55,581 nucleotides of DNA from a virus. The notes beneath the pieces are model-generated. The model was not told where the DNA came from, searched no databases, and was given only the letters and a program-made list of their open reading frames with translations. The DNA lies in IMG/VR virus record IMGVR_UViG_3300045242_000134, positions 1 to 55,581 of that record, one strand, 5' to 3'. Both the position numbers and the translations under genes were made by a program. This document shows positions 10,783 through 54,220 of this stretch, piece by piece (position 1 is the first letter of the stretch; the number at the start of each line of letters is the position of its first letter).

Positions 10783-11058
10783 ATGGATTTAAAAACCCGC
10801 GACCGCAAACTCAAATGCCTCGAAGACATTCTCGAACAACCGCGTAACGATCAAAACGTCGTAGCCGTCGCGCTCTTTAAGATCTGGCACGACGCGCTTT
10901 GGGAAGTGTCCGACGACAGCTTTGATGAATTCACTCAGAATGAATTCGAGATGAGTGAGGTTGATGCGTTTATCATTATGAAGGCTGCGGCAAGCGCCGG
11001 TCAATTTCCTGAGTATGAAGCGGAGAAGATTAACGCGGAATTTGAGAGGTTGGGATGA
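10783..11058 (+). CDS. Small acidic protein, 91 aa, first gene of replication operon
   Basis: ATG 10783 follows AAAGG at 10772-10776, the site controlled by the alternative hairpin. The protein is acidic and helical ('DSFDEFTQNEFEMSEVDAF'), with no known motif. Its stop overlaps the next start (ATGA), so it is coupled to the following genes. As the leading gene behind a switch-like leader it may be a regulator, but nothing in the sequence shows that. Confidence 0.75.
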   Translation: MDLKTRDRKLKCLEDILEQPRNDQNVVAVALFKIWHDALWEVSDDSFDEFTQNEFEMSEVDAFIIMKAAASAGQFPEYEAEKINAEFERLG

Positions 11059-21673: not shown

Positions 21674-22750
21674 ATGAACCCACAAACCGCCCCACAGGCA
21701 CAAACTGCCGTCGTCGTTGCCCCCAAGCGCGAGATTCGCGTTGTTGAAGATGATTCGCCACTGGCCTACATCATGGACACCGCGAAGTTCGAACACTGCT
21801 ATCGCATTGCCGAAGCCATGTCTCGCGCCAGCCTAATCCCGCAGCATTTGAAAGGCGGCACCAAAGAGGAAACGGCAGCGAATTGCTTTCTCGTCGTCAA
21901 TCAGGCGTTGCGCTGGCACATGGACCCATTCCTAATCGCGCCAGAGACGTACGCAATCCAGGGCAAGCTTGGATACCAAGGCAAGCTCGTTGCGGCAGTC
22001 ATCAACACGCGAGCAAACCTTGCGGAGAAACTGCGCTATGACTTTTCCGGCACCAAGGGAACTGATGATTACACCGTGACCGTCTCAGGACGATTTGAGG
22101 GTGAGGCAGAACCTCGAACAGTCAGTGTCAGCGTCGGGCAGGCCAAGACGCAAAATCAAATGTGGACCAAAGACCCTGAGCAGAAACTTGTTTATACAGG
22201 GAGCATAAGGTGGGCGAGAAGGCACAAGCCAGAGATAATCATGGGCGTTGTGACTGATGACGATCTGGACGCGGTGAGAGAGCAGGCGATGATTGACGGC
22301 ATGAAGCAGGTGAAATCGCCGGTGTTTGACGGCCCGATGCCGCAAGGACTGTCTGAGCCTGCGCCTGAACCAGAGAAACGCACTCGCAAACGCCCCACAA
22401 TGGTGGAAGCGCCTCTTGACTCACCAACGCCGACAGTCCAAGCTGAATCGGCAACAAACCCCACGGCGGCACCGCTCGTCTCTGATTCTTCGACGGTGCC
22501 GCCAACTCCTCCCGTAAACGAAACTCCCGGCGAAAAGGAATTGCGCGAGTTGAATGACGCGCTCAAGAAACTGTGCGCGGATGCGGGGATTAGTGAGGAA
22601 CAGTTGGTGGCGTATATGAGAGCGGAGAAGTGGCTTAAACCGGCCCATAAAAAACCTTCCGACCTTTCAACTACAATGTTGAGAGGCTTCATCAAAGGTT
22701 GGCAAACCAACACAGACGAAATGGTTAAACGGATCAAGAGCGCAAAGTGA
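21674..22750 (+). CDS. recT: RecT-family single-strand annealing protein, 358 aa
   Basis: Residues about 30-215 match the RecT fold: 'RIAEAMSRASLIPQHLKGG', 'FLVVNQALRWHMDPFLIA', 'YAIQGKLGYQGKLVAAVIN' and 'GSIRWARRHKPEIIMGV'. The C-terminal third is a Pro/Thr/Ser linker followed by a small helical domain, which is variable in the family. It anneals complementary strands during recombination or concatemer formation. Its partner nuclease is at 23417, now separated by an HNH gene. Start ATG 21674 is 2 nt after the previous stop. Confidence 0.92.
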   Translation: MNPQTAPQAQTAVVVAPKREIRVVEDDSPLAYIMDTAKFEHCYRIAEAMSRASLIPQHLKGGTKEETAANCFLVVNQALRWHMDPFLIAPETYAIQGKLGYQGKLVAAVINTRANLAEKLRYDFSGTKGTDDYTVTVSGRFEGEAEPRTVSVSVGQAKTQNQMWTKDPEQKLVYTGSIRWARRHKPEIIMGVVTDDDLDAVREQAMIDGMKQVKSPVFDGPMPQGLSEPAPEPEKRTRKRPTMVEAPLDSPTPTVQAESATNPTAAPLVSDSSTVPPTPPVNETPGEKELRELNDALKKLCADAGISEEQLVAYMRAEKWLKPAHKKPSDLSTTMLRGFIKGWQTNTDEMVKRIKSAK

Positions 22751-38723: not shown

Positions 38724-38751
38724 AGATTATGTAATTTCACAACTATGTCAA
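38724..38751 (-). promoter_or_regulatory. TTGACA promoter inside the head-gene operon
   Basis: On the minus strand TTGACA (38751-38746) is followed by CATAAT (38731-38726, spacer 14) or TAATCT (38729-38724, spacer 16). It overlaps the last codons of the ATP-grasp gene and sits 34 nt before ATG 38717. It would give extra expression of the scaffold and capsid genes. Confidence 0.5.
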
Positions 38752-40035
38752 CACTGTTTCCGGTGCTGGAACCTCCGACGGAAAGTCAATGCCAGCATCT
38801 TGTGCCTGTTCTACGACGGTAAGCAACTCTCCCAATGGTTCAAGGTCTGCGCTCATACCATCAGGCAGCAGTTTGATTTGCTCCTTCATTGTGGCTATCA
38901 TTTCTTCCACAGTGTCACCAATAGCCACCAGCCAACCAATTGCCTCTCCGTGTTGCTCATCAGGAGGAAAGCAGCGCAAGTCATCAATCTGGCACGAATT
39001 TGGAAGCTTTAGCCAACGCTTCAACTCAGTTGGAACTTCGGCAATGCCCCAAGCGTGACGGTCGCCCTTCATGTTCACCAACACCTCTCCAGTGAATTTC
39101 TTTTCGTAATCAGGCTGCACCAGCTCACCTTGAGCGCCATGGTAAATGACTTTCGGTAGGTTCGTGATGTTCTCAAGGTTTGAGGGTGTGGCAGGCATTG
39201 GGGCGCGAGTAGTGGCATCTCCAAAGTAATGCTTATCGCCCTTTACCCTGTCCTCCATCGACCAGAAATTGCGGTAGCGATATTTTGATAACTCAGGACC
39301 AAAAGCATTGAGTATTTCAATGATCTGTGGTGGCATTTCTTTGCGCGGCGTCACGGCGCTGATGTATGCCTTATCCTTGTTCTCATCACCGTGGAGCATT
39401 TCATCCGGCCACTGGCCATCAATGCAATAGGTGTCCCCACCAATTTCTAGCGGTGTGTCAATTGGATCGAATACCATGAACGGCACAATCTCTTTTGCCG
39501 GTCCAAACTTCACCGCCCATGAGTCAAGAAGGCATTCATCCAACTTCCAGCTACGAAATTTCTGAGTCTCGAAACTTCCACGCCATCGACTTATCTTTAT
39601 GAACCATGGCCCGTCATTTGACTTTAGAAATTCAGAGAGTTTGGTAAGTCCTTGGATAGTGCGGTACTTCGGAACATCCAATCCAACTTGTTCGAGCACG
39701 CGATGAAACTTCTCTCGGAACAATTCTAGTGAGTCACCCTTGCGGCTGCCCCACACAGCGCGGCCTTGAGATTCCAATTCGAGCTGCAACCCACCGTGTT
39801 CAATGTCGGGGAACACCCAAATATCTACATCGTCTTTGACGCTCCAAATGTCATTGATCCGTTCAACTCCATCCAGACCGTAACCGAGAATTGCACTATT
39901 GAGTTTGGAGAAGCCTTCTTCGTAAGGGCTGTGATAGAGGACTCTACCAAAACCGTTTCGAGCGAGGCGTTCAGCGAGAGTTACGAAAAGGCCATGGTCG
40001 AAGACAAGGGCTGTGGCTTCTGATAGTGGCTTCAT
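38743..40035 (-). CDS. ATP-grasp-like protein in the head module, 430 aa
   Basis: The N-domain 'GRVLYHSPYEEGFSKLN' plus 'DVDIWVFPDIEHGGLQLELE' and the linker 'GRAVWGSRKGDSLELFREKF' resemble the GAR-synthetase/PurD layout. It is followed by 'VPKYRTIQGLTKLSEFLKSN' and 'GPWFIKISRWRGSFET', which is the ATP-binding small domain (Lys in FIK). Later 'VKGDKHYFGDATTRAPM' may be the second lobe. Such ligases join a carboxylate to an amine using ATP. What substrate it has in a head-gene cluster is unknown. It could modify a virion protein or make a small metabolite. Confidence 0.65.
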   Translation of the reverse strand: MKPLSEATALVFDHGLFVTLAERLARNGFGRVLYHSPYEEGFSKLNSAILGYGLDGVERINDIWSVKDDVDIWVFPDIEHGGLQLELESQGRAVWGSRKGDSLELFREKFHRVLEQVGLDVPKYRTIQGLTKLSEFLKSNDGPWFIKISRWRGSFETQKFRSWKLDECLLDSWAVKFGPAKEIVPFMVFDPIDTPLEIGGDTYCIDGQWPDEMLHGDENKDKAYISAVTPRKEMPPQIIEILNAFGPELSKYRYRNFWSMEDRVKGDKHYFGDATTRAPMPATPSNLENITNLPKVIYHGAQGELVQPDYEKKFTGEVLVNMKGDRHAWGIAEVPTELKRWLKLPNSCQIDDLRCFPPDEQHGEAIGWLVAIGDTVEEMIATMKEQIKLLPDGMSADLEPLGELLTVVEQAQDAGIDFPSEVPAPETVLT

Positions 40036-40089: not shown

Positions 40090-40578
40090 TTAGGGGACAA
40101 CAAGACCAAGTTGTTTATTTGTTAGAGCAAAATCTCCCCAACGCTTTACAGCTTCGGCGTCATATGCCGCTACCGCATCTTTAAGACTAGAAAACCGTTT
40201 TACAAATCTGCTCGGTCCAACACCAACTCTGACATTCCACTTGCTGTTAAACTTATCCCAAGAAACACCCTTGTATCCAGAAGTATTGGTTTTCCTTTTT
40301 TTGGAGTGACCCATGTTGTTTGCATGGGTGGTTCTCTTGAGGTTGTGCTTCTGATTATTTAATCCGTTATGATCTTCGTGGTGAATTATGGTTCCTTTTA
40401 TCTTTCCCATTACCATTTCGTGCATTCTCATCACAGATCTTCCTAAATGAGTTTGAGCATACCAAATATCATCGCTTTTGCTGGCTTTTTCGGCAGACCA
40501 CTTATGCCTGAAAAGTAATTCAAAATCTTCGTCATCAACCAAGGCAAATCTTCCTCTGGTTAGCGGGATTGTCTTCAT
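40090..40578 (-). CDS. HNH endonuclease with AP2 domain, 162 aa
   Basis: 'RHKWSAEKASKSDDIWYAQT' (N-terminal NUMOD4-like part), 'RMHEMVMGKIKGTIIHHEDH' and 'GLNNQKHNLKRTTHANNMGH' form the HNH core (HHEDHNGLNN). 'SGYKGVSWDKFNSKWNVRV' and 'RFSSLKDAVAAYDAEAVKRW' are an AP2/ERF DNA-binding domain. It is on the same strand as its neighbours and overlaps the portal stop by 4 bases (ATGA), unlike the antisense copies elsewhere. Confidence 0.9.
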   Translation of the reverse strand: MKTIPLTRGRFALVDDEDFELLFRHKWSAEKASKSDDIWYAQTHLGRSVMRMHEMVMGKIKGTIIHHEDHNGLNNQKHNLKRTTHANNMGHSKKRKTNTSGYKGVSWDKFNSKWNVRVGVGPSRFVKRFSSLKDAVAAYDAEAVKRWGDFALTNKQLGLVVP

Positions 40579-42890
40579 TCTTCGTCAAATAGCTGCTTTC
40601 GTTTGCTCAGTTCGACTTTAGCTTTTGCTTGCTCAACACTCAACTGCAACGCCGCCTCGGAAGCGTCCTTCTGCATTTGAAAGGCGTGCTTTTGCTCATC
40701 TTGCCTTTGCTTAGCTTCGAAACTCAACTGCCTCTGAGCTGTCTTGCTGGCATGACTCTGACTGCCTTGCTGAATCTTAGCCTGAGCAGTCATCATAATC
40801 GCCTTCACCTTCGCCTGTGCTGCGGGGTCTTGGCCGTTCTGTGCGGTTGCCTTCTGTGCCGCCTGCTGCTGGCGTTGGGCCATGGCCTTAACTTCGTTGG
40901 TTTCGTTCTTGAGCGCGTCGTTCAGTTCTTTGACCAACGCCTTTTGCGTCCTGTCTTGAGCAAGTTGAGCGATAAAATTCTGAGCGTATTGAATGGCTCC
41001 TGCTAACCCCTTAACTTCCTGAGGCATACCAACACCACCGCCCTGCATGATTTCCTGAACCTTGCCTTGAATGAGTTGAAGCATCGTCTGAGCGACTTCA
41101 ATTGCATTGAGTCCCGGTCGTGGACGAACAGTGCCACCAGCAAGGAACGTTCCGAACGTCTGCTCAGTGTCGTGCATCGAATTGCTGATATGCGGTGACT
41201 CTGGATTAAGACTCATCGCCAGCTTCCAATCTCCGGTGATTGCCGCGTCATAACGCCGTTGAATCTCAACTTGCGCCTCGGGTCCATGTGCGGGTTTGGC
41301 AGCATAAAGCTTCTCTGCGATAGCGACTTCCAGCATCTTGTTGCCGCCACCCATCACGCGGTTGATTTGCAAATCCCAACGATCGTGGTTTAGAGCTTCT
41401 TCCGGCACGCCGTCCTTGAGGCATTCGACACGAAACTTCCGAACGTCAGGGTCTTTGGAATTGGGGATACAAAAACGTCGGGCAATTTCACGGTAACGAA
41501 ATAACTCACGGGCATACATGCTGTTAATCATGCTCCCTACCAACGACGCCTGAGAGTTGACCGTAGCCATCGTGTGCGTCGCAGTCTCGCCCTTGCCGCT
41601 TTCTTCGTTATACTCCTGGGTGAACGACGCCGAATGATCGGCCATCGTTTGGCGCAGCTTGGCAAACGCACTCTCAACCAATTGTTCGTTCACCTGCCAT
41701 CGTTCTTCTGGTCGAACGAACTGCATTCCCTCGGGCAGAAAACCTTTGTCAATCAGATCCACCTTTTGAAGCCGGTCAACATCCTGCGGGTTGTTGATGC
41801 GAAAGTATTGCATCAATGATTCGAACACAGAATCGGTGAAGCGACAGTTGAGCCGGTTTTGTAAGTGGCATACCGCGTAGAGTAGGAATCCCAAGCTGCG
41901 TATAGAATGATACCGGAATGGAGCGACTGCGCTCGCATCTCCAAATTGGAAATGGATAATTTTGTCCAGCTTATCGGCGTAGATGCGTTTCCCGCTATCG
42001 TACAGGAATTGGCCTTTGGACCAATCAAAACGACGTGTGTTCGAGTCAGGTTTTGAGAAAGTTCCACCCACGCCCGGTTGCCCCCACGCATCCAGGATAA
42101 TTCTCCGGTTCCAACCACTTTGCTTGCCATCATCGTTCCAAAAATAAAAGTCATAACAATCAATGGTAGGCACTGCGTCTGAGGCAAACAATCCCGAGTC
42201 CTGCTTAACCCGCTCCTCGAACTTTTCAGGCATCCAATACTCAGGCCAGTTTTGACCCAAGAGTGTTCGGGCTTGTTGGTCTGCCCATTTGAGAGCTTGG
42301 TCTACAATCGGCATGTTCCAACCGGGGTCAACTCTCGGGCCATGCGTCATCTTCCAAAGTTGATTGGCCGAATACTGGCGGAAGATTGTCAGGAACGGCA
42401 GGTTCTTGAGTGAGCGCAAGGTATTCGATGGCACGAGCACGTCTTCAATCCCAAGCTCTGATTGCAACCACATCTCTTTGTCTTCCCACGTCGCAGGACC
42501 AACACCGTGCAGGACAACAGACGCGCCAGTTCCTTCCCGAAGATCGAGAAAGTCCGCGCAGTTAATCATCGGTTTGTTCCATTCCTTCGTAATCTTAGCA
42601 CCCCACTCTGCTCGTTTATGGGCAGGACCATAATCGAGATTAACTGTCACCAGTGGATCGGCGGAAGTCAGGGCATTGGAAATCTGGCGGCGTGCGGAGT
42701 GGTCGAGGTTGGTTGCGCTAAGGTCGTTGTAATTTGTCGCAACATGATTGTCCCGCATTTCATCGGCAGAATAAGGTGGAGCGCCGTTGAAAAGTGAATT
42801 AATTTTGGCCCGATTGTTGGCGCGGGGGAATTCAGCTAAGAGCAATTGCCATACGACCTGCTCAACTGCTTGCGCTGTTTTGAAGTTCAA
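40575..42890 (-). CDS. Portal protein, long podovirus type, 771 aa
   Basis: It starts at a TTG overlapping the VRR-NUC stop (TTGA). The N-terminal 450 aa have the portal crown/wing pattern ('NHVATNYNDLSATNLDHSAR', 'DWSK', 'RFTDSVFESLMQYFRIN'). The C-terminal 170 aa are a Gln-rich coiled coil that would form the barrel seen in P22 gp1 ('KAIMMTAQAKIQQGSQSHAS'). The portal is the DNA entry ring at one capsid vertex and binds the terminase. Confidence 0.88.
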   Translation of the reverse strand: MNFKTAQAVEQVVWQLLLAEFPRANNRAKINSLFNGAPPYSADEMRDNHVATNYNDLSATNLDHSARRQISNALTSADPLVTVNLDYGPAHKRAEWGAKITKEWNKPMINCADFLDLREGTGASVVLHGVGPATWEDKEMWLQSELGIEDVLVPSNTLRSLKNLPFLTIFRQYSANQLWKMTHGPRVDPGWNMPIVDQALKWADQQARTLLGQNWPEYWMPEKFEERVKQDSGLFASDAVPTIDCYDFYFWNDDGKQSGWNRRIILDAWGQPGVGGTFSKPDSNTRRFDWSKGQFLYDSGKRIYADKLDKIIHFQFGDASAVAPFRYHSIRSLGFLLYAVCHLQNRLNCRFTDSVFESLMQYFRINNPQDVDRLQKVDLIDKGFLPEGMQFVRPEERWQVNEQLVESAFAKLRQTMADHSASFTQEYNEESGKGETATHTMATVNSQASLVGSMINSMYARELFRYREIARRFCIPNSKDPDVRKFRVECLKDGVPEEALNHDRWDLQINRVMGGGNKMLEVAIAEKLYAAKPAHGPEAQVEIQRRYDAAITGDWKLAMSLNPESPHISNSMHDTEQTFGTFLAGGTVRPRPGLNAIEVAQTMLQLIQGKVQEIMQGGGVGMPQEVKGLAGAIQYAQNFIAQLAQDRTQKALVKELNDALKNETNEVKAMAQRQQQAAQKATAQNGQDPAAQAKVKAIMMTAQAKIQQGSQSHASKTAQRQLSFEAKQRQDEQKHAFQMQKDASEAALQLSVEQAKAKVELSKRKQLFDEE

Positions 42891-43286: not shown

Positions 43287-43865
43287 TCACCTCTTCCTCA
43301 TCACACACAGTTCTCGGGCAAAGTAGATTGAGTCCACATCGAAAGTCGAACCGTGGATGTGGCTGATGAAGCTCTCCAACCATTCCTTTGATTTACCGTC
43401 AAAGTTCAAATCTTCAACGACGTAAATTCCACCGGATTTGAGATGGTGCCACAACGACGTGAAAGCAGCCTTCATGTCGGAGGCGTAGTGGGAGCCGTCG
43501 TCGATGATTATGTTGAAGCCGCCACCAAACGTTGCAGTGAATGTTTGCCAAAAATAATAGTCGGATTGACTGCCGCAGAAGAATTCATATCGGTCGTTGT
43601 CAGAAGCGCCAGGGGTATTCCACGGATTTGTTTTCGAAACAAGGTCTACTCCGAACACTTTGGCATTCGGAAAATACTCCAGCCACGTCAGCACAGACTC
43701 TCCACCACCAACCCCAATTTCGAGCAGCTTAATCGGCATGTCCCGCATCGGTTCAAAGAACCTTTCGAGATGCCGAAGGTAGTCGTGTGGCTTCGCGTAT
43801 GTGCGCGAGAACTGAGAGGCTTTGTCGGTCTGGTGGGCGATGCCGATTTCGTCAAGGGTTTTCAT
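43287..43865 (-). CDS. Class I SAM methyltransferase, TylF/MycE-like, 192 aa
   Basis: 'KLLEIGVGGGESVLTWLEYF' is SAM motif I. 'FGVDL' (acidic end of strand 2), 'NIIIDDGSHYASDMKAAF' (the metal/catalytic IDDGSH motif of macrocin-type O-methyltransferases) and 'LKSGGIYVVEDLNFDG' follow. The family methylates sugar hydroxyls. ATG 43865 overlaps the stop of the micropeptide gene. It is the last gene of the sugar-modification cassette. Confidence 0.85.
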   Translation of the reverse strand: MKTLDEIGIAHQTDKASQFSRTYAKPHDYLRHLERFFEPMRDMPIKLLEIGVGGGESVLTWLEYFPNAKVFGVDLVSKTNPWNTPGASDNDRYEFFCGSQSDYYFWQTFTATFGGGFNIIIDDGSHYASDMKAAFTSLWHHLKSGGIYVVEDLNFDGKSKEWLESFISHIHGSTFDVDSIYFARELCVMRKR

Positions 43866-43972
43866 CAGTTCCAAAAGAATCTATACTGACATTCGTAATA
43901 ATCAGTTCGCCACGGCTTTTTAACAAGCACTGTGGCGTAGCCATTGAGCATACAAATATAAAGATGCTTCAT
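43865..43972 (-). CDS. Micropeptide in sugar cassette, 35 aa
   Basis: ATG 43972 overlaps the radical-SAM stop (ATGA) and its own stop overlaps the methyltransferase start (TGATG). It opens 'MKHLYICMLNGYATVLVKK' and has an aromatic end. Coupling on both sides argues that it is translated. Confidence 0.55.
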   Translation of the reverse strand: MKHLYICMLNGYATVLVKKPWRTDYYECQYRFFWN

Positions 43973-45054
43973 GGCTCCCACTTCTTTCTGTCCACCAAAT
44001 GAAAATACATATTCGTTCGATACTTCAAACATTGCTTACAAAAAGCGTGCCCCGTTCGCTGCTCAATCATCTGCTCCGGCGTCGCGTCCAGATAATCAGT
44101 GAGCTTCAATCGCCTGTCAGCGGTGCACGCGCACAACGAAGTCTGCCCATCGTGACGGATGAAAGTAAACATCCCACCTGCACCTACCGGACACACGGAA
44201 GAAACTGGATACTCCTTATACATCTCACGAGCATTCGTCGGGGGTATCTTCAAACGCTCCATCGTTGCGATATAAGTATCGCCAACCGGGGGAAGAATTT
44301 TATTCCAGTCAGGCTTACCTTCAACCACTTCGAAGGGTGTGGCATCGGGGTCTTTGGAGCGGCAATATTGAATCGCATTCTCCATTGAAATCGCACGCGC
44401 CATTGAGGTAAAGAAACCAAGACCGAGATTCTTAGCATACTCGCGCATTGGTTCAATCTCGTGTTCGTTATCGTTATAGACGTGGTAGTTCACCGATATA
44501 CGAACGCGGCGTTCTTCTGGTATGCGATTGTTGGTTTCGGCCAGTATCCGCATGTTCTCTTTAACTCGTTCGATGTTGCCGCCAGCATGACCGCGAACGT
44601 AAATGTCTTGGGTAAACCCTGAGAGACTAATGATGATGAAATCGGGACGAGCGGTTAACACTTCCTCAACGCGATTGAGTTTGTTCAGATTAGTGGACAT
44701 TTCGGGATGCAGTCCCCAATCGTGAACGGCGGTAATGCACTCCGGTAAATTGGGATGCAGAAATGGCTCACTGTTGCCATACATAAAGACTATCGCATTG
44801 GAATTTTCCTTAGCGATTTTCTCAAGTATGGAGTTCATTAAATCCATGTCCATGAAACCACTTTTGTGTTCATAACGAAGTCCTTGAATCGGACGCTGAT
44901 TACCCTTGGTGCAGGTTGGACAGAATAGGTTGCAGGCGCTTCCGATCTCCAAAAACACCCGCCACGGTTTCAGCTTCACCGTATCCGCGCTGATAGCGCC
45001 GTCTATGAACGGGATGCAGGAGTCGGCGTAGGCTTGTTGGAGGGCGGTGGTCAT
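43969..45054 (-). CDS. Radical SAM enzyme with SPASM-like C-terminus, 361 aa
   Basis: ATG 45054 is 8 nt after the upstream stop; an alternative at 45087 overlaps it. 'EIGSACNLFCPTCTKGNQRP' carries CxxxCxxC for the 4Fe-4S cluster. 'FMYGNSEPFLHPNLPECITA' is the GGEP-like motif; 'LSGFTQDIYVRGHAGGNIER' is typical of the barrel. C-terminal Cys (VCPVGAGGM, CACTAD, FCKQCLKY) look like a SPASM or twitch auxiliary cluster. Targets in relatives are peptides or sugars. In this cassette a sugar or virion-peptide modification is plausible. Confidence 0.88.
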   Translation of the reverse strand: MTTALQQAYADSCIPFIDGAISADTVKLKPWRVFLEIGSACNLFCPTCTKGNQRPIQGLRYEHKSGFMDMDLMNSILEKIAKENSNAIVFMYGNSEPFLHPNLPECITAVHDWGLHPEMSTNLNKLNRVEEVLTARPDFIIISLSGFTQDIYVRGHAGGNIERVKENMRILAETNNRIPEERRVRISVNYHVYNDNEHEIEPMREYAKNLGLGFFTSMARAISMENAIQYCRSKDPDATPFEVVEGKPDWNKILPPVGDTYIATMERLKIPPTNAREMYKEYPVSSVCPVGAGGMFTFIRHDGQTSLCACTADRRLKLTDYLDATPEQMIEQRTGHAFCKQCLKYRTNMYFHLVDRKKWEP

Positions 45055-45061
45055 ACAAAGT

Positions 45062-46024
45062 TCATTCCTTTTCCCATATTTGCTCAAAGAAGCCTTCGGC
45101 CCTTAAAGGCAACGCTGGTTTTCGAGAGATGAGTTTGAGATTGGTGTTGGCCGAAACAACATCTCCAATGTGAGTTGCGAGTTCGTGATTTACTGATACA
45201 AACCTTCCCTTCTTTCGGAGCACTCTCTCAATGGATTTCACGCAATCTATTTGATCGTGCGAAAGAAATTCAACAATAGAATCTTCATTTACAACCAGAT
45301 CCATTTCTGTATCAGGCCAAGCCAATCCATGCACATGGACTGGGAAAAATCTGTCCTTAAGCTCTCCGTTTAACCAGACCTTATCCTCACCTATTTTCGC
45401 CATGGACAGGAATGCGAAAATAGATGCCATTATGAATAAATCTCGGGCGTGCCAAGTAATTCCAGGAATTTGCAATGCGAGCGCGGAAAGCCCCCCAGTT
45501 CCTGGACCTATTTCCAACACCGAGGCATTTGTAAGCATTGGCGCAAGTGTTTTGAAAAGCATGGTGTAATGCGCCACTCTCGGCTGAATCAGTTTTGTGT
45601 CCATGACTAGTCCACATGCTCCAAATGATTGCGGAATGCTTATATCGACACCCAAGCAAGTTTCAATTGACGACACTGCGTCTGCTAAGTTGTTTGGGGT
45701 TGGCAATCCCAACTCGATTGCACAAGATGAAATTGTCGATTTGATAAATTCAGGGTAGTTCTCTCCGGGCCACTGAGAGTCTGCATAGTATTTGGGTAAA
45801 TCTACTCCGTGGAGAATTGAGCCGTCGTATAAGTGTTCGAGTTCCTTTCGGATGGTGGGCACATCGCCTCCAGACAGAATGTCATGGAACTTTTTTTGAC
45901 AGGAATCGAATATCATACCCCAAGTTGATTGCGGTGGGGCTGGAGAAGATCTGCGGGAGTAAAACTCCACCACTCTTTTTATTGCGTTGTCAGAGAGTGG
46001 ACACCCGTAACATTGTGTGATCAC
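45062..46024 (-). CDS. SAM-dependent methyltransferase (sugar O-methyltransferase-like), 320 aa
   Basis: GTG 46024 overlaps the stop of the gene upstream (GTGA). 'ASVLEIGPGTGGLSALAL' (motif I, residues about 169-186) is preceded by a 165-aa helical domain, as in putative sugar O-methyltransferases. 'MDLVVNEDSIVEFLSHDQI' and 'LRKKGRFVSVNHELATH' complete the fold. The substrate is unknown. Confidence 0.8.
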   Translation of the reverse strand: MITQCYGCPLSDNAIKRVVEFYSRRSSPAPPQSTWGMIFDSCQKKFHDILSGGDVPTIRKELEHLYDGSILHGVDLPKYYADSQWPGENYPEFIKSTISSCAIELGLPTPNNLADAVSSIETCLGVDISIPQSFGACGLVMDTKLIQPRVAHYTMLFKTLAPMLTNASVLEIGPGTGGLSALALQIPGITWHARDLFIMASIFAFLSMAKIGEDKVWLNGELKDRFFPVHVHGLAWPDTEMDLVVNEDSIVEFLSHDQIDCVKSIERVLRKKGRFVSVNHELATHIGDVVSANTNLKLISRKPALPLRAEGFFEQIWEKE

Positions 46025-46704
46025 GTCCCAATCCCCCCCGCATAATAATTCTTTACCTTCGGCAATCGTGGCCCAATGCTCAAAATCACCTCTGCCTCAA
46101 AGCGACTGTCAATCGAGTCAATCCCTGAATCTTTGATGCGTTGCCTTGTCATCACGCTTGGAAGTGTTCTCAAGAACGAAGCTCTAACCCAATAACAGGT
46201 GCCCGCGAAATAGAATTGACTCTTGTCCCATCCCTGACCAGTTAGCCAATGCGCTCCGCAACTTTCGTACCCTTCACGTAAATCCTTGACGCATAATCGC
46301 CAGTCTTCCACGCAATGCTTCATCATTCTTGCCCTCCAAGGCGTTGACATATTTTTTTCGTAATCGGATCCGATTGCGTGAGTCGCTCCCTTGCTGTGGA
46401 AATTTAAAATGTAAGCCTCGGGTTTGAAATTTCTGCACCAGTCTTCAATCATCAACAATGTTCGAAGTTCGTTGCGACATTGCAACCCGTGATAGGTGAC
46501 AATCGCCTTTCGCGGTATCAACGCTTCAACGAAGTGTTTGCTCTCGTCGCCGCCGTTTACACCAACTCGAAATTCGTCACAGGCATCAAGCAACCCGCTG
46601 TCTTTGAGCGCCGTCATCTGCTTGTAAACGATGGAAGGCGCGGCGGGCAAGACCTTGGCTCCGATTTGGAACAGGCAGTGATAAAAAACTATGATAGGCG
46701 TCAT
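46021..46704 (-). CDS. Glycosyltransferase-like protein (RgpF/capsular type), 227 aa
   Basis: ATG 46704 overlaps the upstream stop. 'PIIVFYHCLFQIGAKVLPAA', 'YILNFHSKGATHAIGSDYEK', 'WRARMMKHCVEDWRLCVKDL' and 'FYFAGTCYWVRASFLRTLPS' match the pattern of surface-polysaccharide glycosyltransferases (H.HSKG; G.FW.A...LR.LP). No signal or transmembrane segment. Confidence 0.75.
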   Translation of the reverse strand: MTPIIVFYHCLFQIGAKVLPAAPSIVYKQMTALKDSGLLDACDEFRVGVNGGDESKHFVEALIPRKAIVTYHGLQCRNELRTLLMIEDWCRNFKPEAYILNFHSKGATHAIGSDYEKNMSTPWRARMMKHCVEDWRLCVKDLREGYESCGAHWLTGQGWDKSQFYFAGTCYWVRASFLRTLPSVMTRQRIKDSGIDSIDSRFEAEVILSIGPRLPKVKNYYAGGIGT

Positions 46705-47384
46705 GGTGATGGCCAATACGGTGGACTCGTGAGGCGGTCGCCCACAATAATGTTGTGCTGCGTTCCTTGATGAAATCCACCAGCCATGCTGTCACAGTTA
46801 TGAAGTGGCAGCACGCAATCCCAACCAACGATATAGGCAGGCAAGCCTTTTGAAATTGCGAATTGAGTTATGGAGTTTTCAGAATGCTCCCATGGATACC
46901 TCTGGCTGTTATCGGTCACTTTGAATGGATGTTCATTTAACAGTTTAGGATTACACCAGAAGCCCGTTGTGCGTACATGCGGCCACACGTTTACGCGAAT
47001 ATCGCCCTGATTTCCAGAACAACCGTAGAGTCCATCGCCGTAGCAATTGTAAGCGCCCATCATTCGGCGCAACCATCCTGGACGGCGGAAGTAGCTGCTG
47101 CCTCCAAAGAACACCATTAGGTCACACGGGATACGTAGAGCGGCAAACTGATAAGCGCCAATGTCCATGCCCACGTTGTCACGACTCAAGAACATCGCGC
47201 CACCAATACTTGAGAACTGTTCGATAGCTCTCGCGTCAGGCTTTCCGCCGTTGCTCACCACAATCATTTGGTGGTCTTTGTGTGGTGGATTGTTGCGGTA
47301 GCTGGTCACAAAGTGTTCGGCGTAATCCGCGTGCTGTGGTCCGAAGTTAGCGGTTGGATAGTTGTAACAACAAACAATCTTCAC
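46701..47384 (-). CDS. Glycosyltransferase-like protein, 227 aa
   Basis: GTG 47384 overlaps the upstream stop (GTGA). 'HQMIVVSNGGKPDARAIEQF', 'LSRDNVGMDIGAYQFAALRI' and 'FFGGSSYFRRPGWLRRMMGA' are typical of the NxGxDIGAY family that adds rhamnose or other sugars to surface glycans. It probably works with the next gene. Confidence 0.75.
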   Translation of the reverse strand: MKIVCCYNYPTANFGPQHADYAEHFVTSYRNNPPHKDHQMIVVSNGGKPDARAIEQFSSIGGAMFLSRDNVGMDIGAYQFAALRIPCDLMVFFGGSSYFRRPGWLRRMMGAYNCYGDGLYGCSGNQGDIRVNVWPHVRTTGFWCNPKLLNEHPFKVTDNSQRYPWEHSENSITQFAISKGLPAYIVGWDCVLPLHNCDSMAGGFHQGTQHNIIVGDRLTSPPYWPSP

Positions 47385-47482
47385 TCCTCACCATCCCACC
47401 AGTTGAGAAAACAAGCCAAGGCCAGCCACGCAATTAGCACGATCTGTTTGAACAGCCCACGTTCTTCGTATTCGTCGCTCAT
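47381..47482 (-). CDS. Single-span membrane micropeptide, 33 aa
   Basis: ATG 47482 opens 'MSDEYEERGLFKQIVLIAWL' with a hydrophobic helix 'IVLIAWLALACFLNWW'. It overlaps both neighbours by 4 bases, so it is probably translated. It may anchor cassette enzymes to the membrane. Confidence 0.6.
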   Translation of the reverse strand: MSDEYEERGLFKQIVLIAWLALACFLNWWDGEE

Positions 47483-47694
47483 CGTCTCACCCCAATCTTC
47501 GCAAGTATCTGCCTGCCAATTTGAGAGTTAATGTAAACCTCCTTGAGATTTTTCATCTTGCAAAATATCTGAGCGGAAGCGAACAAGTTGAATGAGGCTA
47601 TGTCTCCGTTTTCCCAATAGACTCGACCATCCAATGTAAACAGCAGATAGCGTTCAAATACCCGATCCCAAAGAATGATGACGGGAGTGATCAC
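47479..47694 (-). CDS. Small protein, 71 aa, in sugar cassette
   Basis: GTG 47694 overlaps the stop of the large glycosyltransferase. 'MITPVIILWDRVFERYLLFT' then 'LDGRVYWENGDIASFNLF'. Beta-rich start, basic C-terminal helix. No family. Confidence 0.55.
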   Translation of the reverse strand: MITPVIILWDRVFERYLLFTLDGRVYWENGDIASFNLFASAQIFCKMKNLKEVYINSQIGRQILAKIGVRR

Positions 47695-49049
47695 GCCAAC
47701 ATCTCCTCTGACAGTTTGTAATACGCTCCCGGTCGTTCAATTCTCGTGTTGGGATTTTTCGTCCACTCCTCGACCACCACTTTCTTGTGCAGTCCGTGGG
47801 CAATCGCCAGTGGTAGGCTTTGATTCATCACGCATAGCTTCGCACCTGCAATCACTCTCGCCAACTCCAAAGCGTCTTTAGTAGGTCGATAATCAAACTT
47901 GCATTGAGGGGCAAATCCGCAGAACGCTTCATATTCTTGAGGCGTGCCCACAAACGTCATTTGCCGGTGAAATTTCTCAATGAACCGCGTCCAGTTGAAG
48001 TCAAGATTCTGATAGCGGGCCGTTCGATTCACTATGATGGGCTTGTCTGGAATTACAACTGGTTCTGGTACGGCCAACCATGGGACAGATGGCATGGGCA
48101 ACGAGAAAGCGTCCATGTGCAGCTTTAGTATAGAATCGAAATCGCGTGCGGTTCGATTTCGCCACGGAATGCGAAATCGGTTCAGGTCGTGTGTCGTTGA
48201 TGCCGGATGCCCGTGCGTGTAACGACATTTCAAAATGTAAGGCTGCGCTTCGACCAACGGCGCGAGGTTATCCACCCAATCAGCTTCGCCGCCCATCCTG
48301 GCCCAACGGCTGTTGAGCGGATACGGATAACGATTGTGCGGCGTGAGAAACATCATACCGCCGCCAAGAGCCTTGACCGCTGCGAGGCTATAAATCAGAT
48401 CGCCAGCATCGCCAGAGTGAGTGAATATGTTGCAGACGCGATGTTCGGCGGGAAGTGGTGTGAGAAGGCTATGGAAACCAAATTGGTTGTGCCAGTGGCT
48501 ATTGGTTCCGCCCCATTCTTTTCCATTCCAAGAACGCCCCTCAAAAGCAAATCGTTTTGCAATTTCCGGTGGAGCAAATCTAAATCCAGCCTTCTCGATT
48601 TCATCGCGGTGCCGAACGCAGATGCACGAGTCCTCTGGGTGGAAGTCATCCCACGGTTGTTTTGAAATCCATTCCATCAGCTTTTTGCTTCGGAGCGAAA
48701 AACCACCGTTCCCTATGATGCCACTCGGATTAAACGGAGCGCCAATGTAATCATACTTCAAAAAATCATCAGCCCACGCCTGCCCGTTCAAAACAAAACC
48801 ATCGTATTGGCAAATTAGCGCGTGAGTGGTATCCACATACTTGTGCATTTCACGGATGCAGAATTTGGAGTAATCATCAAGACCCGAAATGAGCGGTAAA
48901 ACTTTGCTATGGAACCATCGACTATTCAAAAACTTCACGTCTCCAAAGTCACACTGGTCCATGGACTTCTTCATTGCCATTTCAGACCAATGGGCTTTAT
49001 CCGTGCAATCCGCGCACAACAAAGTGACTTGTGGAAGCTTGGGCTTCAC
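47691..49049 (-). CDS. Two-domain glycosyltransferase: DUF5672-like plus GT-B/GT9-like, 452 aa
   Basis: Residues about 1-190: 'THALICQYDGFVLNGQAWAD', 'KYDYIGAPFNPSGIIGNGGF' and 'SLRSKKLMEWISKQ' are the DUF5672 signature (CQYDGF, DYIGAPW, GNGGFSLRS). Residues about 200-452: 'NIFTHSGDAGDLIYSLAAVK', 'IIVNRTARYQNLDFNWTRFI', 'MTFVGTPQEYEAFCGF' and 'VIAGAKLCVMNQSLPLAIAH' look like a GT-B fold near family 9 (heptosyltransferase-like). The fusion suggests two successive glycosyl transfers or a donor-acceptor pair. Confidence 0.8.
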   Translation of the reverse strand: MKPKLPQVTLLCADCTDKAHWSEMAMKKSMDQCDFGDVKFLNSRWFHSKVLPLISGLDDYSKFCIREMHKYVDTTHALICQYDGFVLNGQAWADDFLKYDYIGAPFNPSGIIGNGGFSLRSKKLMEWISKQPWDDFHPEDSCICVRHRDEIEKAGFRFAPPEIAKRFAFEGRSWNGKEWGGTNSHWHNQFGFHSLLTPLPAEHRVCNIFTHSGDAGDLIYSLAAVKALGGGMMFLTPHNRYPYPLNSRWARMGGEADWVDNLAPLVEAQPYILKCRYTHGHPASTTHDLNRFRIPWRNRTARDFDSILKLHMDAFSLPMPSVPWLAVPEPVVIPDKPIIVNRTARYQNLDFNWTRFIEKFHRQMTFVGTPQEYEAFCGFAPQCKFDYRPTKDALELARVIAGAKLCVMNQSLPLAIAHGLHKKVVVEEWTKNPNTRIERPGAYYKLSEEMLA

Positions 49050-49429
49050 TTAATCGCCACCCCATGATACTCACCCATCACCTCACTAGACGTCCCCGTC
49101 CTAAACGCCGCGAGAATCTCACCAAGCCTTGGCAGCGTGGCGTTGATTGCACGATGATAACACGCAGCAGTTTTGTCAGCGCGTTCTTTGGCTTCTGCCG
49201 CTGACAACTCCACAGACTTAAGATTGTTTTCAAGGCGTGAACGTTGGCTTTCATCCTTGAGCGTCATTAACTCAAAACCAATTTCTTCGACTCTCGCAAA
49301 CTTGGTCTTCGCCACCTCCGCAAGCTGCTGCGACTTCTTGAGCTTCCGTTCAGCCATGCGCTTCGTGCGGTCGATGGCGGCGATTATCTCGTCCTCAGTT
49401 TTCCAAATCTTTGGGCGTCGGGAGTGCAT
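49046..49429 (-). CDS. Coiled-coil small protein, 127 aa
   Basis: 'TEDEIIAAIDRTKRMAERKL' and a Lys/Glu-rich coil to residue about 100. ATGA coupling to the glycosyltransferase and a 35-base overlap with the gene upstream. It could be a small-terminase-like or structural adaptor; no motif supports either. Confidence 0.55.
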   Translation of the reverse strand: MHSRRPKIWKTEDEIIAAIDRTKRMAERKLKKSQQLAEVAKTKFARVEEIGFELMTLKDESQRSRLENNLKSVELSAAEAKERADKTAACYHRAINATLPRLGEILAAFRTGTSSEVMGEYHGVAIK

Positions 49430-50114
49430 TTGATTCCTTTCTTATCCAGCAGGCGGCGTCCAACTGCGCCTTAATATCGTCACTCATGTGCTTGACGATG
49501 AACGCGAGCGGAAACCACTGCTTCAAAACAAGTGGGCACATGCAAGCTGAGCAAACATGGAGTTTGCCATCCTGACTCGTCTTTAATCCTCTCCCTTCCT
49601 TGGCCTCGATTTGCTTCCTGATTCGTTCAGCGGCAGGGATGGTGAAGAACCTGCTCAAATCACCCTTCTCATTCAACGGACACGCCACGCACACCGCAGC
49701 GCGTGATTCGGCCACCTCTTGCGAGACTGGAGATTCACCACTGTCCATGAAATCGTTGATTGTGGCGGCTCCGACACTAATTGCTTTTACCGCAGCAAGC
49801 ACTGGCGAGCTTCGTGTCGGAGCCTGATGAAAAGACGCGGGAACATCCGTACTCACGACGTAAATATCTCCACCCGGCATGGCCGCAACTCGTTCGGCAT
49901 TCTTGGCGTCCACTTCGTTCTGAATCGCCGTCATGTCGGTGCTCAGTTTGTATTTTGGATTGGACATGCGGTGTTTCTGCAACTCATTGCACAATAACTG
50001 AAAATCCCATTGTGACGATGGGCAGACCTTGAAATTCTCCCACCCTGTCAACGCCTGCCGATACAAGAAGCCATTCGGCGGCGACTGTGTTCTGCTTTTC
50101 AAACGATAAGGCAT
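49395..50114 (-). CDS. Conserved phage protein with cysteine clusters, 239 aa
   Basis: The N-terminal 'WDFQLLCNELQKHRMSNP' and C-terminal 'EVAESRAAVCVACPLNEKGD' and 'VCSACMCPLVLKQWFPLAFI' follow a pattern I know from environmental phages (RAAVC..CP.N...C..C.C.L..KV..PL..I). The two Cys groups probably bind one or two metals. It heads the minus-strand sugar cassette. Confidence 0.75.
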   Translation of the reverse strand: MPYRLKSRTQSPPNGFLYRQALTGWENFKVCPSSQWDFQLLCNELQKHRMSNPKYKLSTDMTAIQNEVDAKNAERVAAMPGGDIYVVSTDVPASFHQAPTRSSPVLAAVKAISVGAATINDFMDSGESPVSQEVAESRAAVCVACPLNEKGDLSRFFTIPAAERIRKQIEAKEGRGLKTSQDGKLHVCSACMCPLVLKQWFPLAFIVKHMSDDIKAQLDAACWIRKESNALPTPKDLEN

Positions 50115-51092: not shown

Positions 51093-51535
51093 AACAGACC
51101 TACACCTGCCCCGAATGCCAAGACGATATTGAATGCGACGAGAACGCGAAGGCTTGCACCTGCCCATCGTGCAAAACCGAGTATCGAATTGACCACGATG
51201 CGGAACAAATCGAGGGCGTTTGGAAGGATCGCACGACACTTACGCCAGTGAATAAATGCACAGAATGCGGCACTGAAATACCGAACGACATTTGGAAAGA
51301 CCCAATGGTTCGCGAAGCACTTAAAGATGGACGCAGTGCCGACGGTATTATGGTTATCGCCTGCCCGAAATGTAACCGATATGGTTACTACAACGAAGGG
51401 TCACATTTTTCCTGCCGGTTTTGTAACGAAACTTTTCACATTACCGATTCGGATGAATTTGAACCAGTTACTTTGGCTGACACAATTACTGAAACAACTG
51501 AAGGCTACCACAACGAGACTATGCCGCATAATTAA
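51089..51535 (+). CDS. Multi-zinc-ribbon protein, 148 aa
   Basis: ATG 51089 overlaps the previous stop. Three CxxC pairs are seen: CPECQDDIEC...CPSC (residues about 7-30), CTECGTEIP (about 56) and CPKCNRYGYY...CRFCNETF (about 90-112). Probably binds nucleic acid or bridges proteins. Its end overlaps the terminase end by 17 bases, with no terminator between these converging genes. Confidence 0.75.
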   Translation: MKQTYTCPECQDDIECDENAKACTCPSCKTEYRIDHDAEQIEGVWKDRTTLTPVNKCTECGTEIPNDIWKDPMVREALKDGRSADGIMVIACPKCNRYGYYNEGSHFSCRFCNETFHITDSDEFEPVTLADTITETTEGYHNETMPHN

Positions 51536-53312
51536 GTTCGTGCGATTCCCTCAACTTCCTCGACTTCGAAATCAGGTCAGTAATCCATTCGTGGTTTGAA
51601 CTGTCTTCTTCAAGGTTCACCATCTTCTTGATTTGGAAACCTCGGCGTCGTGCGCCTTCAAGAACTATCGCCGCCCAATCGTAAAGGTCTGGTGATTGGC
51701 CTGTGCGTTCCTTCATCTTCATCTTCGGCTCAATCTCAATCTTGTTACCAGCAACCTCACTCCACTCGCGCATACAACCGTCGTCAATCACCTCCTCGAT
51801 TAGCCCGCGCACTTGACCGGCGACAATCGCATAGCGCGTTGACCACCACAGTTCGGATACGAATTTCGAGTAGTGTTCTTTGCACGTCTTAAGTCGCCGC
51901 TGACCATTTCGGTCCATGATGTAATGGTCCATGGTCACGGGTCGATCACTTGGGCTTCCTCCAAATTCAACAGGGTTGATGTTCGCACTCCATATGCGGG
52001 CAAGTGATGGACCGAGACTGCCGCGCCCAGTTGAATCGTAAAACATATTCTCTGGCGGGATGCCATTGCTTTGGCAAAAGTTTCTCACCCACTCTGCAAT
52101 CTGGTCTTCGGGAAGCTTCGGGATGTTCACCACGATTGGAACGATGACCGGCTTCCAGTATTTCAAAATCGTAGCACCTTGAACATCTCGACCAAACTCA
52201 CCGTAGCCACCCACGCAGCGATCACCGCCCGCGCCACCGTAAGCGGCGTCCAATCCGAATATCTTGACGCGTGGACTACCATCCCAAATCACATCTTCCA
52301 GCGCCTTGTTTTGCTTGCACAGTTGAAAGCTGATAACGCGCTTGGCATTAAGACCCGATTTGCGAACACCCAACGCTTGCGAATAATACTGGTGAGAATC
52401 TTTGCCGTAACCGGCGATGACGCGCTCGATTGAATCCTGGTTGAGCATTCCACTGAATTTGTCCTTCGTCTCTTTGTCGAAGTTCGGGCTATCAGGACCG
52501 TAGAGACAAATCGTGCGACTATTGAGGAACCGGCGATTCTTCCAAACCGTTGTCTTGGTTGGCTCAGGCATTGATTCCCAACCGCACTCAGGTTCAGCGA
52601 GTTTATCCAGCGGATCGTTCTGGCCAATTGGGTTGCCGTCAAAGATGCCCTTGTAATCACCGCTGTTCATGTTGCCGATAGACTCAAGCATACCCGGCCC
52701 CATGAACTGCATTTCATTTCCCAAATGGCGACGACGCTTTTGTTTGATGCCCACGTAGGGTGCAATCGACTGAAACTCGCCAGTAGAAGTTTTGCACGCA
52801 ACACAGATGAGTCCTTTGCGCATATCGCGCACATCGCTCTCGTCTTCCAAGTCATCGGTCGAAATCGCTTTCTTGCTGTCGAGGACGTTGCCAGATAGCC
52901 ATGGATGTTTTAACCGAGCAGAACGAAACAGCATCTTAATGTCACCCCACACGCGAGTTTCGATGGCCACCAAAGTCGTTGAAGAAATCAGGATGAGTGT
53001 TGTTTCTGGGAACGCCCAATAATCGACCAATGCGAATTTGGAAATTGTGCGCGTCTTGCCACAGTCCTTTGGTCCGGTAACAACCGTGATGGTGTTGTTG
53101 ATTATTTCGGAGAGTATAAGGTCCGTCCATCGGTTTAAATACTCATCGGGCCAAAGGAGTTTAGTTGCTTCTCGGTAGTGGTGAAATAGCCCAAGCCCAA
53201 CCTCTTTTCCCCCGCTGATGTATTTGCCTCCCTGCTGAATTATGTGAAATTCTATTTTAAGCGCGTCTGCGTCATCAGGCCATTCAGCGTTATATCGCTC
53301 AAACATCTGCAT
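51519..53312 (-). CDS. terL: Terminase large subunit, 597 aa
   Basis: ATG 53312 (AGGT at 7-nt spacing) is preferred; a longer frame would run into the divergent gene. The ATPase has 'VVTGPKDCGKTRTISKF' (Walker A variant GPxxCGKT, residues about 77-93) and 'TTLILISSTT' (strand before Walker B). The nuclease has 'KIFGLDAAYGGAGGDRC' (first Asp), 'NMFYDSTGRGSLG' (second) and 'SPDLYDWAAIVLEGARRR' (third). It cuts and pumps DNA through the portal. No small subunit was recognised with confidence. Confidence 0.9.
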   Translation of the reverse strand: MQMFERYNAEWPDDADALKIEFHIIQQGGKYISGGKEVGLGLFHHYREATKLLWPDEYLNRWTDLILSEIINNTITVVTGPKDCGKTRTISKFALVDYWAFPETTLILISSTTLVAIETRVWGDIKMLFRSARLKHPWLSGNVLDSKKAISTDDLEDESDVRDMRKGLICVACKTSTGEFQSIAPYVGIKQKRRRHLGNEMQFMGPGMLESIGNMNSGDYKGIFDGNPIGQNDPLDKLAEPECGWESMPEPTKTTVWKNRRFLNSRTICLYGPDSPNFDKETKDKFSGMLNQDSIERVIAGYGKDSHQYYSQALGVRKSGLNAKRVISFQLCKQNKALEDVIWDGSPRVKIFGLDAAYGGAGGDRCVGGYGEFGRDVQGATILKYWKPVIVPIVVNIPKLPEDQIAEWVRNFCQSNGIPPENMFYDSTGRGSLGPSLARIWSANINPVEFGGSPSDRPVTMDHYIMDRNGQRRLKTCKEHYSKFVSELWWSTRYAIVAGQVRGLIEEVIDDGCMREWSEVAGNKIEIEPKMKMKERTGQSPDLYDWAAIVLEGARRRGFQIKKMVNLEEDSSNHEWITDLISKSRKLRESHELNYAA

Positions 53313-53347
53313 TGACTTTACCTGTTGACCGATTAAGAGTCGAGAAT

Positions 53348-54220
53348 ATGAGTCCTGCTGATTGCTGCTCTCCCTGTGATAGTCAAGTTGCACCAGTCAA
53401 CATTGTGGGGTCACAGGGGCCAGCGGGAGCGGCGGGAACCAATGGCACGAATGGAGTCAGCGCGTTTACCACAACCACTGCACAGTTTACCTCTCCGGCA
53501 GATCTTACAACAGCCTTCACTGTCTCAGTCGCCAACTCAACGTGGTGTGTTGTTGGCCAAGACCTCATAATTGGGCAAGGTCCAGGTGTGGCACTCGCAA
53601 ATCCCGGCCCGTGCGCGGTCGTCATTACAGCCATTCCTTCACCGAATGCAATTACGGTAAAGAATCTCCGCGTGGTTGATGAGAACGTTACGGTAAGTGC
53701 TGGAGCGTTGGTGTCAGTCAGCGGATTCCTACCAGCGGTGCCGGTGTTGATTTCGCAGGGTGGAACTTCGTCAACTACAAAGGCAGCGGCACAGACTGCG
53801 TTGGGGTTGGGGCAGAATTCAATCATCTCAAGCGGCGCGGCGCTGGCGCAGGCAATTACAGCAGCAAGCCTTCAAGTAGGAGCGATTGACGTGACTCTGC
53901 CTGCTTTGGGTTCTTATGAACTGCGAGGACAAGTTGGGATTGATTTCAACGGAGTCACCTTTGCGGCCAGTCGAACAATCACTGTTAAGATTCGCAATAT
54001 CACTCAAGCCAGCGATCTTGTGAGTGGTGTTTTGCACACGCAGGCGGTTACAACCCTTAGTTTCCCAACTCACTTTCTCCAACTCCCCCCACTTCGATAT
54101 GATACGGCTGGAGTGAATGATCACCTCCAGCTATTTTGCACCATTGACGTGATAAATTCAGCAGGCACGTTGAGTTTGGATTCTGGATCCTTGGAAGCAA
54201 TACCGCTTAGACAGAGTTAG
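53348..54220 (+). CDS. Virion fibre/decoration protein with collagen-like stretch, 290 aa
   Basis: ATG 53348 gives 'MSPADCCSPCDSQVAPVNIV', then a short collagen repeat (GPAGAAGTNGTNG, residues about 22-34), a beta-rich middle and a C-terminal domain of about 130 aa that looks like a receptor-binding or trimer head. The CCSPC start recalls the cysteine anchors of the decoration proteins at 29986-32158. It leads the plus-strand virion operon that continues across the circle junction. TTGACT lies 36 nt upstream. Confidence 0.72.
   Translation: MSPADCCSPCDSQVAPVNIVGSQGPAGAAGTNGTNGVSAFTTTTAQFTSPADLTTAFTVSVANSTWCVVGQDLIIGQGPGVALANPGPCAVVITAIPSPNAITVKNLRVVDENVTVSAGALVSVSGFLPAVPVLISQGGTSSTTKAAAQTALGLGQNSIISSGAALAQAITAASLQVGAIDVTLPALGSYELRGQVGIDFNGVTFAASRTITVKIRNITQASDLVSGVLHTQAVTTLSFPTHFLQLPPLRYDTAGVNDHLQLFCTIDVINSAGTLSLDSGSLEAIPLRQS

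Follow-up and report, generated by a model that had tools for sequence, protein, structure and literature searches.

Which function is served by a row of putative sugar-modifying genes lodged among the packaging and head genes of an uncultured bacterial virus, and on what would their products act? The row was studied in a 55-kb window (the whole stretch of DNA analysed, 55,581 nt) and comprises nine cassette reading frames, all open between 43287 and 49049 on the minus strand (Table 1). They had been described in the initial annotation as near-continuously coupled, in agreement with the junctions found: overlaps of 4 nt at p127/GTfus, GTfus/s71, s71/s33, s33/GT227, GT227/GT231 (taking the ATG start of GT231), GT231/MT320 and rSAM/s35, an overlap of 1 nt at s35/MT195, and a single 7-nt gap between MT320 and the ATG of rSAM at 45054. 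MT195 is followed by VRR at a distance of 1 nt. This coupling is not specific to the cassette, because the 4-nt overlaps run on beyond the cassette edge into VRR/portal and portal/HNH; the entire late operon is packed this tightly, and the overlaps were rejected as a delimiter of the cassette. Repeats within the cassette were at chance level only.

Table 1. Features of the sugar-gene island and its boundaries in the window
Feature	Coordinates	Strand	Remarks
Large terminase	51519..53393	-	Upstream boundary of the island
p239, Cys-rich	49395..50114	-	Marks the upstream edge; found in 39 contigs (44 members), as a rule immediately ahead of GT227
p127	49046..49429	-	Function not assigned; upstream of GTfus; homologues in loci L002 and L003
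GTfus, 452 aa	47691..49049	-	N-terminal DUF5672 (GT-like) and C-terminal GT9-like domain
s71, 71 aa	47479..47694	-	Homologue adjoins GTfus in L002 (46%) and in L003 (69%)
s33, 33 aa	47381..47482	-	One hydrophobic stretch, hydropathy peak 2.25
GT227, 227 aa	46701..47384	-	GT2/RgpF-like, glycosyltransferase-like; 71 members in 45 contigs
GT231	46021..46704	-	Glycosyltransferase-like; 227 aa from ATG 46704, 231 aa from TTG 46716; 40 members in 39 contigs
MT320, 320 aa	45062..46024	-	SAM methyltransferase; Pfam Methyltransf_11, E 1e-4
rSAM	43969..45054	-	SPASM/twitch-like C-terminal cysteines; PF04055, E 1.6e-7
s35, 35 aa	43865..43972	-	91% identical in L002
MT195	43287..43865	-	MycE/TylE-like sugar O-methyltransferase; profile matches 3SSM, 8IA9
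Portal (name inferred)	40575..42890	-	Downstream boundary; in 40 contigs, normally after the island

The placement of these genes in a head-gene operon was judged from the two boundary genes. The window also encodes a capsid-like protein, p547 (32525–34168). The window terminase carries a Walker A-like motif and two of its 12 relatives match the PHROG_2 terminase, but the gene at the other boundary has no Pfam or PHROG match, and is putatively named portal from its size, position and conservation only.

The island was compared across 52 IMG/VR contigs (53 with the window), in which presence rates are biased upward because the contigs were found via rSAM or GT227. In most of the 52, the interval between terminase and portal holds a shared core together with exchangeable sugar genes, extending to related metagenomic phages the synteny that the initial annotation had proposed to examine. 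The core, whose order is kept, consists of p239, one or two GT227 genes, GT231 and often rSAM and MT195; the variable set includes a sugar C-methyltransferase (Methyltransf_13/14), an RmlD-like reductase, TylF and FkbM methyltransferases, transferases of the GT2, GT9 and GT34 families, and TOD1/MUCI70. MT320, whose relatives were found neither in phages nor in IMG/VR and which was seen only in this contig, and GTfus, for which profile scans found close relatives in just a few contigs, are recent or subclade additions outside the core. Among the 23 whole records, four of the five GT2 matches lie inside the terminase–portal interval. Dozens of related viruses hold changing sets of sugar genes at this same spot.

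The strong turnover of the outer genes, along with the many HNH insertions in the interval, could be taken to indicate a common insertion hotspot carrying independent cargo with no shared pathway. This is very improbable given the preserved core order and the distance correlations, which are higher for GT231–MT195 (0.74) and rSAM–MT195 (0.62) than for comparisons with the portal (GT231, 0.38; rSAM, 0.25; MT195, 0.27). GT227 and rSAM also travel as a unit into another backbone: a phage whose terminase is unrelated carries the GT227–rSAM–C-methyltransferase set intact. In another phage, GT227–rSAM lies between scaffold-like and capsid-like genes.

The family matches point to sugar chemistry. MT195 (192–195 aa) matches 3SSM (E 1.3e-25) and 8IA9 (E 2e-21) and has in common with the antibiotic sugar O-methyltransferases MycE and TylE the methyltransferase domain and the metal and catalytic residues, whereas the N-terminal domain of these 400-aa enzymes is absent from it and its alignment covers only residues 196–327 of 3SSM. 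The residues D122, D123, H126, E151 and D152, which are invariant across 24 MT195 sequences and align to IDDGSH and ED of 3SSM, correspond to the metal ligands and catalytic histidine of MycE. In a 735-kb phage, a relative of MT195 and a GT2-like domain are fused in one protein. In mycobacteriophage McProf, a relative immediately follows a gene for a glycosyltransferase, a pairing that occurs in mycobacterial prophages of this kind.

Phage-encoded glycosyltransferases are indicated by the DUF5672 match of GTfus, the GT2 matches of GT227 relatives and the GT2, GT9 and GT34 matches of neighbouring genes. GTfus had been predicted to be a fused two-domain glycosyltransferase, and its N-terminal half is indeed DUF5672 (Pfam PF18922, E 3e-18); the C-terminal half, for which GT9 had been suggested, has no Pfam match, and its profile matches that of a neighbouring GT9-like gene only weakly. 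A single-protein search of IMG/VR with GTfus gave nothing, its relatives being found by profile scan. Glycos_transf_2 is matched by four of 60 GT227 members (best E 7e-5) and RgpF by one, the window GT227 itself having no Pfam GT2 match, and none of the 60 has a DxD metal-binding motif at the aligned place. GT231 matches no Pfam family and no RgpF protein, although its relatives occur in glycan clusters of a cyanophage and a huge phage. A profile comparison between GT227 and GT231 yielded no match, and sequence searches of both against the PDB returned nothing of use. The folds proposed for GT227, GT231 and the GT9-like domain thus depend on weak sequence evidence, and the activity of the first two is not certain, since GT227 is without DxD in 60 of 60 members and GT231 without a family match.

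The assignment of rSAM to the radical SAM/SPASM enzymes agrees with its PF04055 match, which is above the cut-off, and with its cysteines: across 26 sequences the CxxxCxxC motif (C41, C45, C48) and the C-terminal C288, C308, C339 and C342 are invariant, and C310 is nearly so. Similarity to DesII, BtrN and anSME is weak, and rSAM scores far under the cut-off of every curated subfamily (66 vs 380 bits for TIGR04317; 32 vs 450 bits for DesII, TIGR04426). A single-protein search of the phage collection gave nothing, relatives being recovered by profile scan. One bacterial relative has methyltransferases as neighbours, TylF-like ones among them, together with a WbsX-like gene (names assigned by eye); two Thiorhodococcus relatives have a non-glycan context and were left out of the argument. 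This enzyme had been thought to make the set unusual, but within the lineage it is ordinary, being present in 29 of 53 contigs including the window, a count from contigs selected partly by rSAM.

Of the three very small proteins of the cassette, s71 has homologues in L002 and L003; s33 and s35 are the products of real genes. For s33 (82% identity to its L002 counterpart and, over 20 aa, 70% to that of L003) and s35, this follows from conservation in L002 and from third-codon-position bias, as the base differences between the window and L002 fall at third positions in 12 of 17 cases for s33 and 10 of 13 for s35. The membrane micropeptide s33 is tied to the pathway by position only. With s35 lying directly after an enzyme that bears SPASM-like cysteines and being highly conserved in L002, rSAM and one tiny peptide might be regarded as forming a RiPP-like pair, tailored with methyl groups and sugars. 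This is extremely unlikely: s33 and s35 occur only in the nearest relatives (a tblastn search of the four remaining loci of the first round did not find s35) whereas rSAM occurs in 29 contigs, its relatives without s33 or s35 still adjoin GT231 and MT195, and no protease or exporter is present.

A single pathway that would build and methylate a glycan, as first proposed for the nine genes, is well supported by these comparisons, because the island recurs in most of the 52 contigs, MT195 is MycE/TylE-like and has a GT2-fused relative, and GT227–rSAM–C-methyltransferase persists in an unrelated backbone; family matches back this reading, and above all the 52-contig comparison.

The target of the pathway is less directly indicated. 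Its core enzymes resemble those of surface polysaccharides, and a membrane micropeptide (s33) lies within the cassette, as might be expected if the host surface were modified during infection, for example by capping a polysaccharide precursor, thereby blocking superinfection or re-adsorption to debris. However, this is unlikely, as the marks of Gtr-type serotype conversion were found in none of 23 records (GtrA-like flippase, with positive controls; integrase of the tyrosine type), the cassette has no evident membrane protein apart from s33, and it sits among late packaging genes. Phage DNA is a second conceivable acceptor, as diverse glycosyltransferases of phages are known to produce glycans on phage DNA (cited in PMC12619734) and the annotation of S-SCSM1 names one cluster member a DNA glucosyltransferase. 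Glycosylation of hypermodified bases is nevertheless rather improbable: relatives of thymidylate synthase (base hydroxymethylase) were present in none of the 23 records, with positive controls, no base-modifying family was found among the scanned window proteins, and MT195 resembles glycoside O-methyltransferases rather than DNA enzymes. A search for TET/JBP-like hydroxylases gave no match, yet gave none for its controls either.

A phage pathway of glycan assembly and capping, expressed with the late head genes and most likely acting on a virion protein, appears moderately likely. We infer this acceptor from the late-operon position together with the absence of GtrA, a tyrosine integrase and a thymidylate-synthase relative from the 23 records, although late-operon position does not prove a virion target. 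Gene order, protein families and conservation are directly observed, whereas the substrates, order of steps and benefit proposed here are likewise conjectural. GT227, GT231 and GTfus would add sugars from the host nucleotide-sugar pool to a cytosolic acceptor, most likely a virion protein from the same operon; rSAM may alter one sugar, for example by dehydrogenating it, epimerising it or removing a group from it; MT195 would cap a hydroxyl by O-methylation and MT320 would supply a further methyl group. The exchange of outer genes seen among relatives would then give a different surface glycan. More tentatively, and with some doubt, rSAM, moving between genomes together with the DxD-less GT227, might place a radical-chemistry modification on the virion glycan, which would be the first step of this kind known for a viral glycan.

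Precedents exist in the glycans of mycobacteriophage capsids and tails (PMC12363180), including virion glycosylation of Che8, Corndog and Myrna (Freeman et al. 2023, as cited in PMC12363180 and PMC12619734). Like the island, these phages encode glycosyltransferases that act in their own replication, whereas the island, whose glycan is a prediction, has a larger number of enzymes, rSAM among them, and lies at the terminase–portal position. GT227, GT231 and GTfus had no mycobacteriophage match (tblastn, 50,697 phage records, among which AY129335 was not found). Chlorovirus enzymes make O-methylated capsid glycans, and PBCV-1 A064R and A061L, which combine a multi-domain glycosyltransferase with O-methyltransferases capping the capsid glycan, resemble the island (PMC9614988); this likeness is one of enzyme make-up and role, and PBCV-1 differs in being a eukaryotic virus without radical SAM. 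The cyanophages S-SCSM1 and S-SRM01 and uncultured phages of 635–735 kb carry clusters with relatives of GT231, MT195, DUF5672 or the C-methyltransferase, but these islands are larger, belong to much larger genomes and are not at a terminase–portal position in the stretches seen. Gene clusters for phage glycans, like the glycosylation of virions, are thus already known, while the rSAM partner and the terminase–portal hotspot look like a new variation.

The closely packed enzymes between two of the DNA-packaging/head genes probably assemble a methylated sugar chain of an unusual kind, which most likely serves to coat the phage's own particles. If so, this uncultured lineage would possess one fixed slot for exchangeable sugar-coat chemistry, comparable to bacterial capsule or O-antigen loci. 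It would also offer a testable set of enzymes for rare methylated sugars, including rSAM and a MycE-like O-methyltransferase, and a route to asking what purpose phage glycans serve beyond mycobacteria.

The window is a 55,581-base virus contig from IMG/VR with a linear classification. On its minus strand, the genes for the Cys-rich protein p239 and for p127, the protein encoded upstream of GTfus, and the nine cassette genes lie between a terminase-like gene on their upstream side and a portal-like gene on their downstream side. All cassette genes have open frames. The cassette had been described as joined by short overlaps, and this held when the internal junctions were recomputed (-4, -4, -4, -4, -4, +7, -4, -1), but equally tight junctions run on into p127, a VRR-NUC-like gene, the portal gene and an HNH gene, and the coupling is therefore real but not specific to the cassette. 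In the compared locus L002, s33 and s35, both small ORFs, are conserved at the protein level, with base changes mostly at third codon positions. The plus-strand replication half of the window encodes a RecT-like annealing protein, a DNA helicase and a GIY-YIG protein. In 15 contigs a conserved protein of 430 aa, p430, is encoded on the downstream side of the portal; by eye it looks ATP-grasp-like, but the sole match of a profile search against the PDB was a GAR synthetase (E 0.49).

Features of the window discussed in the text
Feature	Positions	Strand
GIY-YIG (T5orf172/MUG113) protein	11055-11651	+
DNA helicase	12541-14181	+
RecT-like annealing protein	21674-22750	+
p430	38743-40035	
Portal-like gene	40575-42890	-
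p239	49395-50114	
Terminase-like gene	51519-53393	-

IMG/VR profile scans with the radical SAM enzyme (rSAM) and the glycosyltransferase-like GT227 as baits gave contigs mostly of 40-59 kb; merging left 52, some of them near-duplicates, which were compared with the window after unsupervised clustering of their ORFs. The synteny proposed as a check in the initial annotation was found, with glycan genes placed between terminase and portal across contigs in the order terminase, p239, GT227 (one or two copies), GT231, rSAM, MT195, variable genes and portal. Across the 52 contigs and the window, rSAM occurs in 29 and the methyltransferase MT195 in 26. Presence rates in the 40 portal-bearing contigs (GT227 35, p239 34, GT231 32, MT195 23, rSAM 20, C-methyltransferase 20) are biased because rSAM and GT227 served as baits; the terminase-portal position was not a bait. 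The variable genes include the C-methyltransferase, an RmlD-like reductase, TylF, FkbM, GT2, GT9, GT34, TOD1/MUCI70 and other methyltransferases, and four of the five GT2 matches in 23 whole records fall inside the interval. These variable genes, the restriction of GTfus with the tiny protein s71 to near relatives, and the 320-aa methyltransferase MT320, which had no relatives in either collection searched (phage records and IMG/VR), together indicate that the window cassette is one version of an exchangeable island. HNH and homing-endonuclease-like genes (f9, f14, f18, f26, f33) are frequent between island genes in many contigs and may help to swap the island. Some islands (L014, L045, L055) include DNA cytosine methyltransferase-like genes beside glycosyltransferases (family f34; a 278-aa gene in contig 006854). 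p239, present as 44 copies in 39 contigs and directly upstream of glycosyltransferases in most, has no Pfam or PHROG match and may be part of the island or of packaging.

Pairwise distances, which are non-independent data points for which no significance is claimed, gave Spearman values of 0.74 for GT231 against MT195 and 0.62 for rSAM against MT195, with lower values against portal distances (GT231 0.38, MT195 0.27, rSAM 0.25). The near-identical contigs L028 and L029 carry GT227, rSAM and the C-methyltransferase beside a different, opposite-strand terminase, which matches annotated phage terminases and shows no relation to the window terminase profile. In these two and L064, the same three genes and another glycosyltransferase-like gene lie on the opposite strand at about 2-14 kb, between terminase and portal-like genes. 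In another contig (L023/L082), GT227-rSAM is flanked by scaffold-like and capsid-like genes.

MT195 is, on profile similarity, the best-assigned protein of the cassette, matching MycE (3SSM, 1.3e-25) and TylE (8IA9, 2e-21), both glycoside O-methyltransferases. The residues that line up with the presumed metal ligands and catalytic histidine of these two enzymes do not vary across 24 relatives. Gene fusion and gene neighbourhood link the methyltransferase to glycosylation: a 735-kb uncultured phage has an MT195-like domain joined to one of GT2 type (the latter judged by eye), and in mycobacteriophage McProf a relative comes directly after a glycosyltransferase gene, which it overlaps by 1 nt. 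The island of the 735-kb phage (LR756501 318000-342000) spans ~19 kb, with glycosyltransferases, methyltransferases and a radical SAM protein, and its GT231-like domain lies in a 490-aa protein.

The radical SAM domain of rSAM was found clearly by Pfam profile search, as had been annotated, and its CxxxCxxC motif and further C-terminal cysteines are invariant or nearly so in 26 sequences. The rSAM profile shows weak similarity to the sugar and aminocyclitol enzymes DesII and BtrN as well as to anSME and GDGT-MAS, and rSAM reached none of the curated radical SAM subfamilies scanned. Distant relatives in Thiorhodococcus (L086, L087) have a non-glycan context, adjoining a peptidase-like gene and transporter genes.

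The reading of GTfus as a two-domain glycosyltransferase was borne out by Pfam for its DUF5672 half, and its second half gave a weak GT9-like match. The window copies of GT227 and GT231 have no family match. Glycos_transf_2 is matched by four of 60 GT227 relatives. Relatives from the cyanobacterial phylum, which have a DD motif at the corresponding place, reach 1e-9 to that profile, but the DxD motif is absent there from every phage member. GT231 is a putative glycosyltransferase from its gene context: a weak bacterial relative lies between GT11-like and GT2-like genes (both named by eye), a cyanophage relative clusters with a glycosyltransferase, a sulfotransferase and a nucleotide-sugar epimerase, and another lies inside a larger protein of a huge-phage glycan island.

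In mycobacteriophages it is established that phage enzymes glycosylate the virion (PMC12363180, citing Freeman et al. 2023), and in chloroviruses a capsid glycan is both assembled and O-methylated by viral enzymes (PMC9614988). A full-text search of the open-access literature found no paper tying radical SAM enzymes to viral capsid glycans and, among the papers matched, none that by title or abstract dealt with a terminase-portal glycan island. Neither a tyrosine integrase nor GtrA nor a thymidylate-synthase relative was found in 23 records, with controls giving signal; a TET search gave no match, yet its controls were silent too. Since neither a flippase nor a lipid-carrier transferase is evident and late head genes lie on either side, the simplest acceptor would be a cytosolic virion protein.
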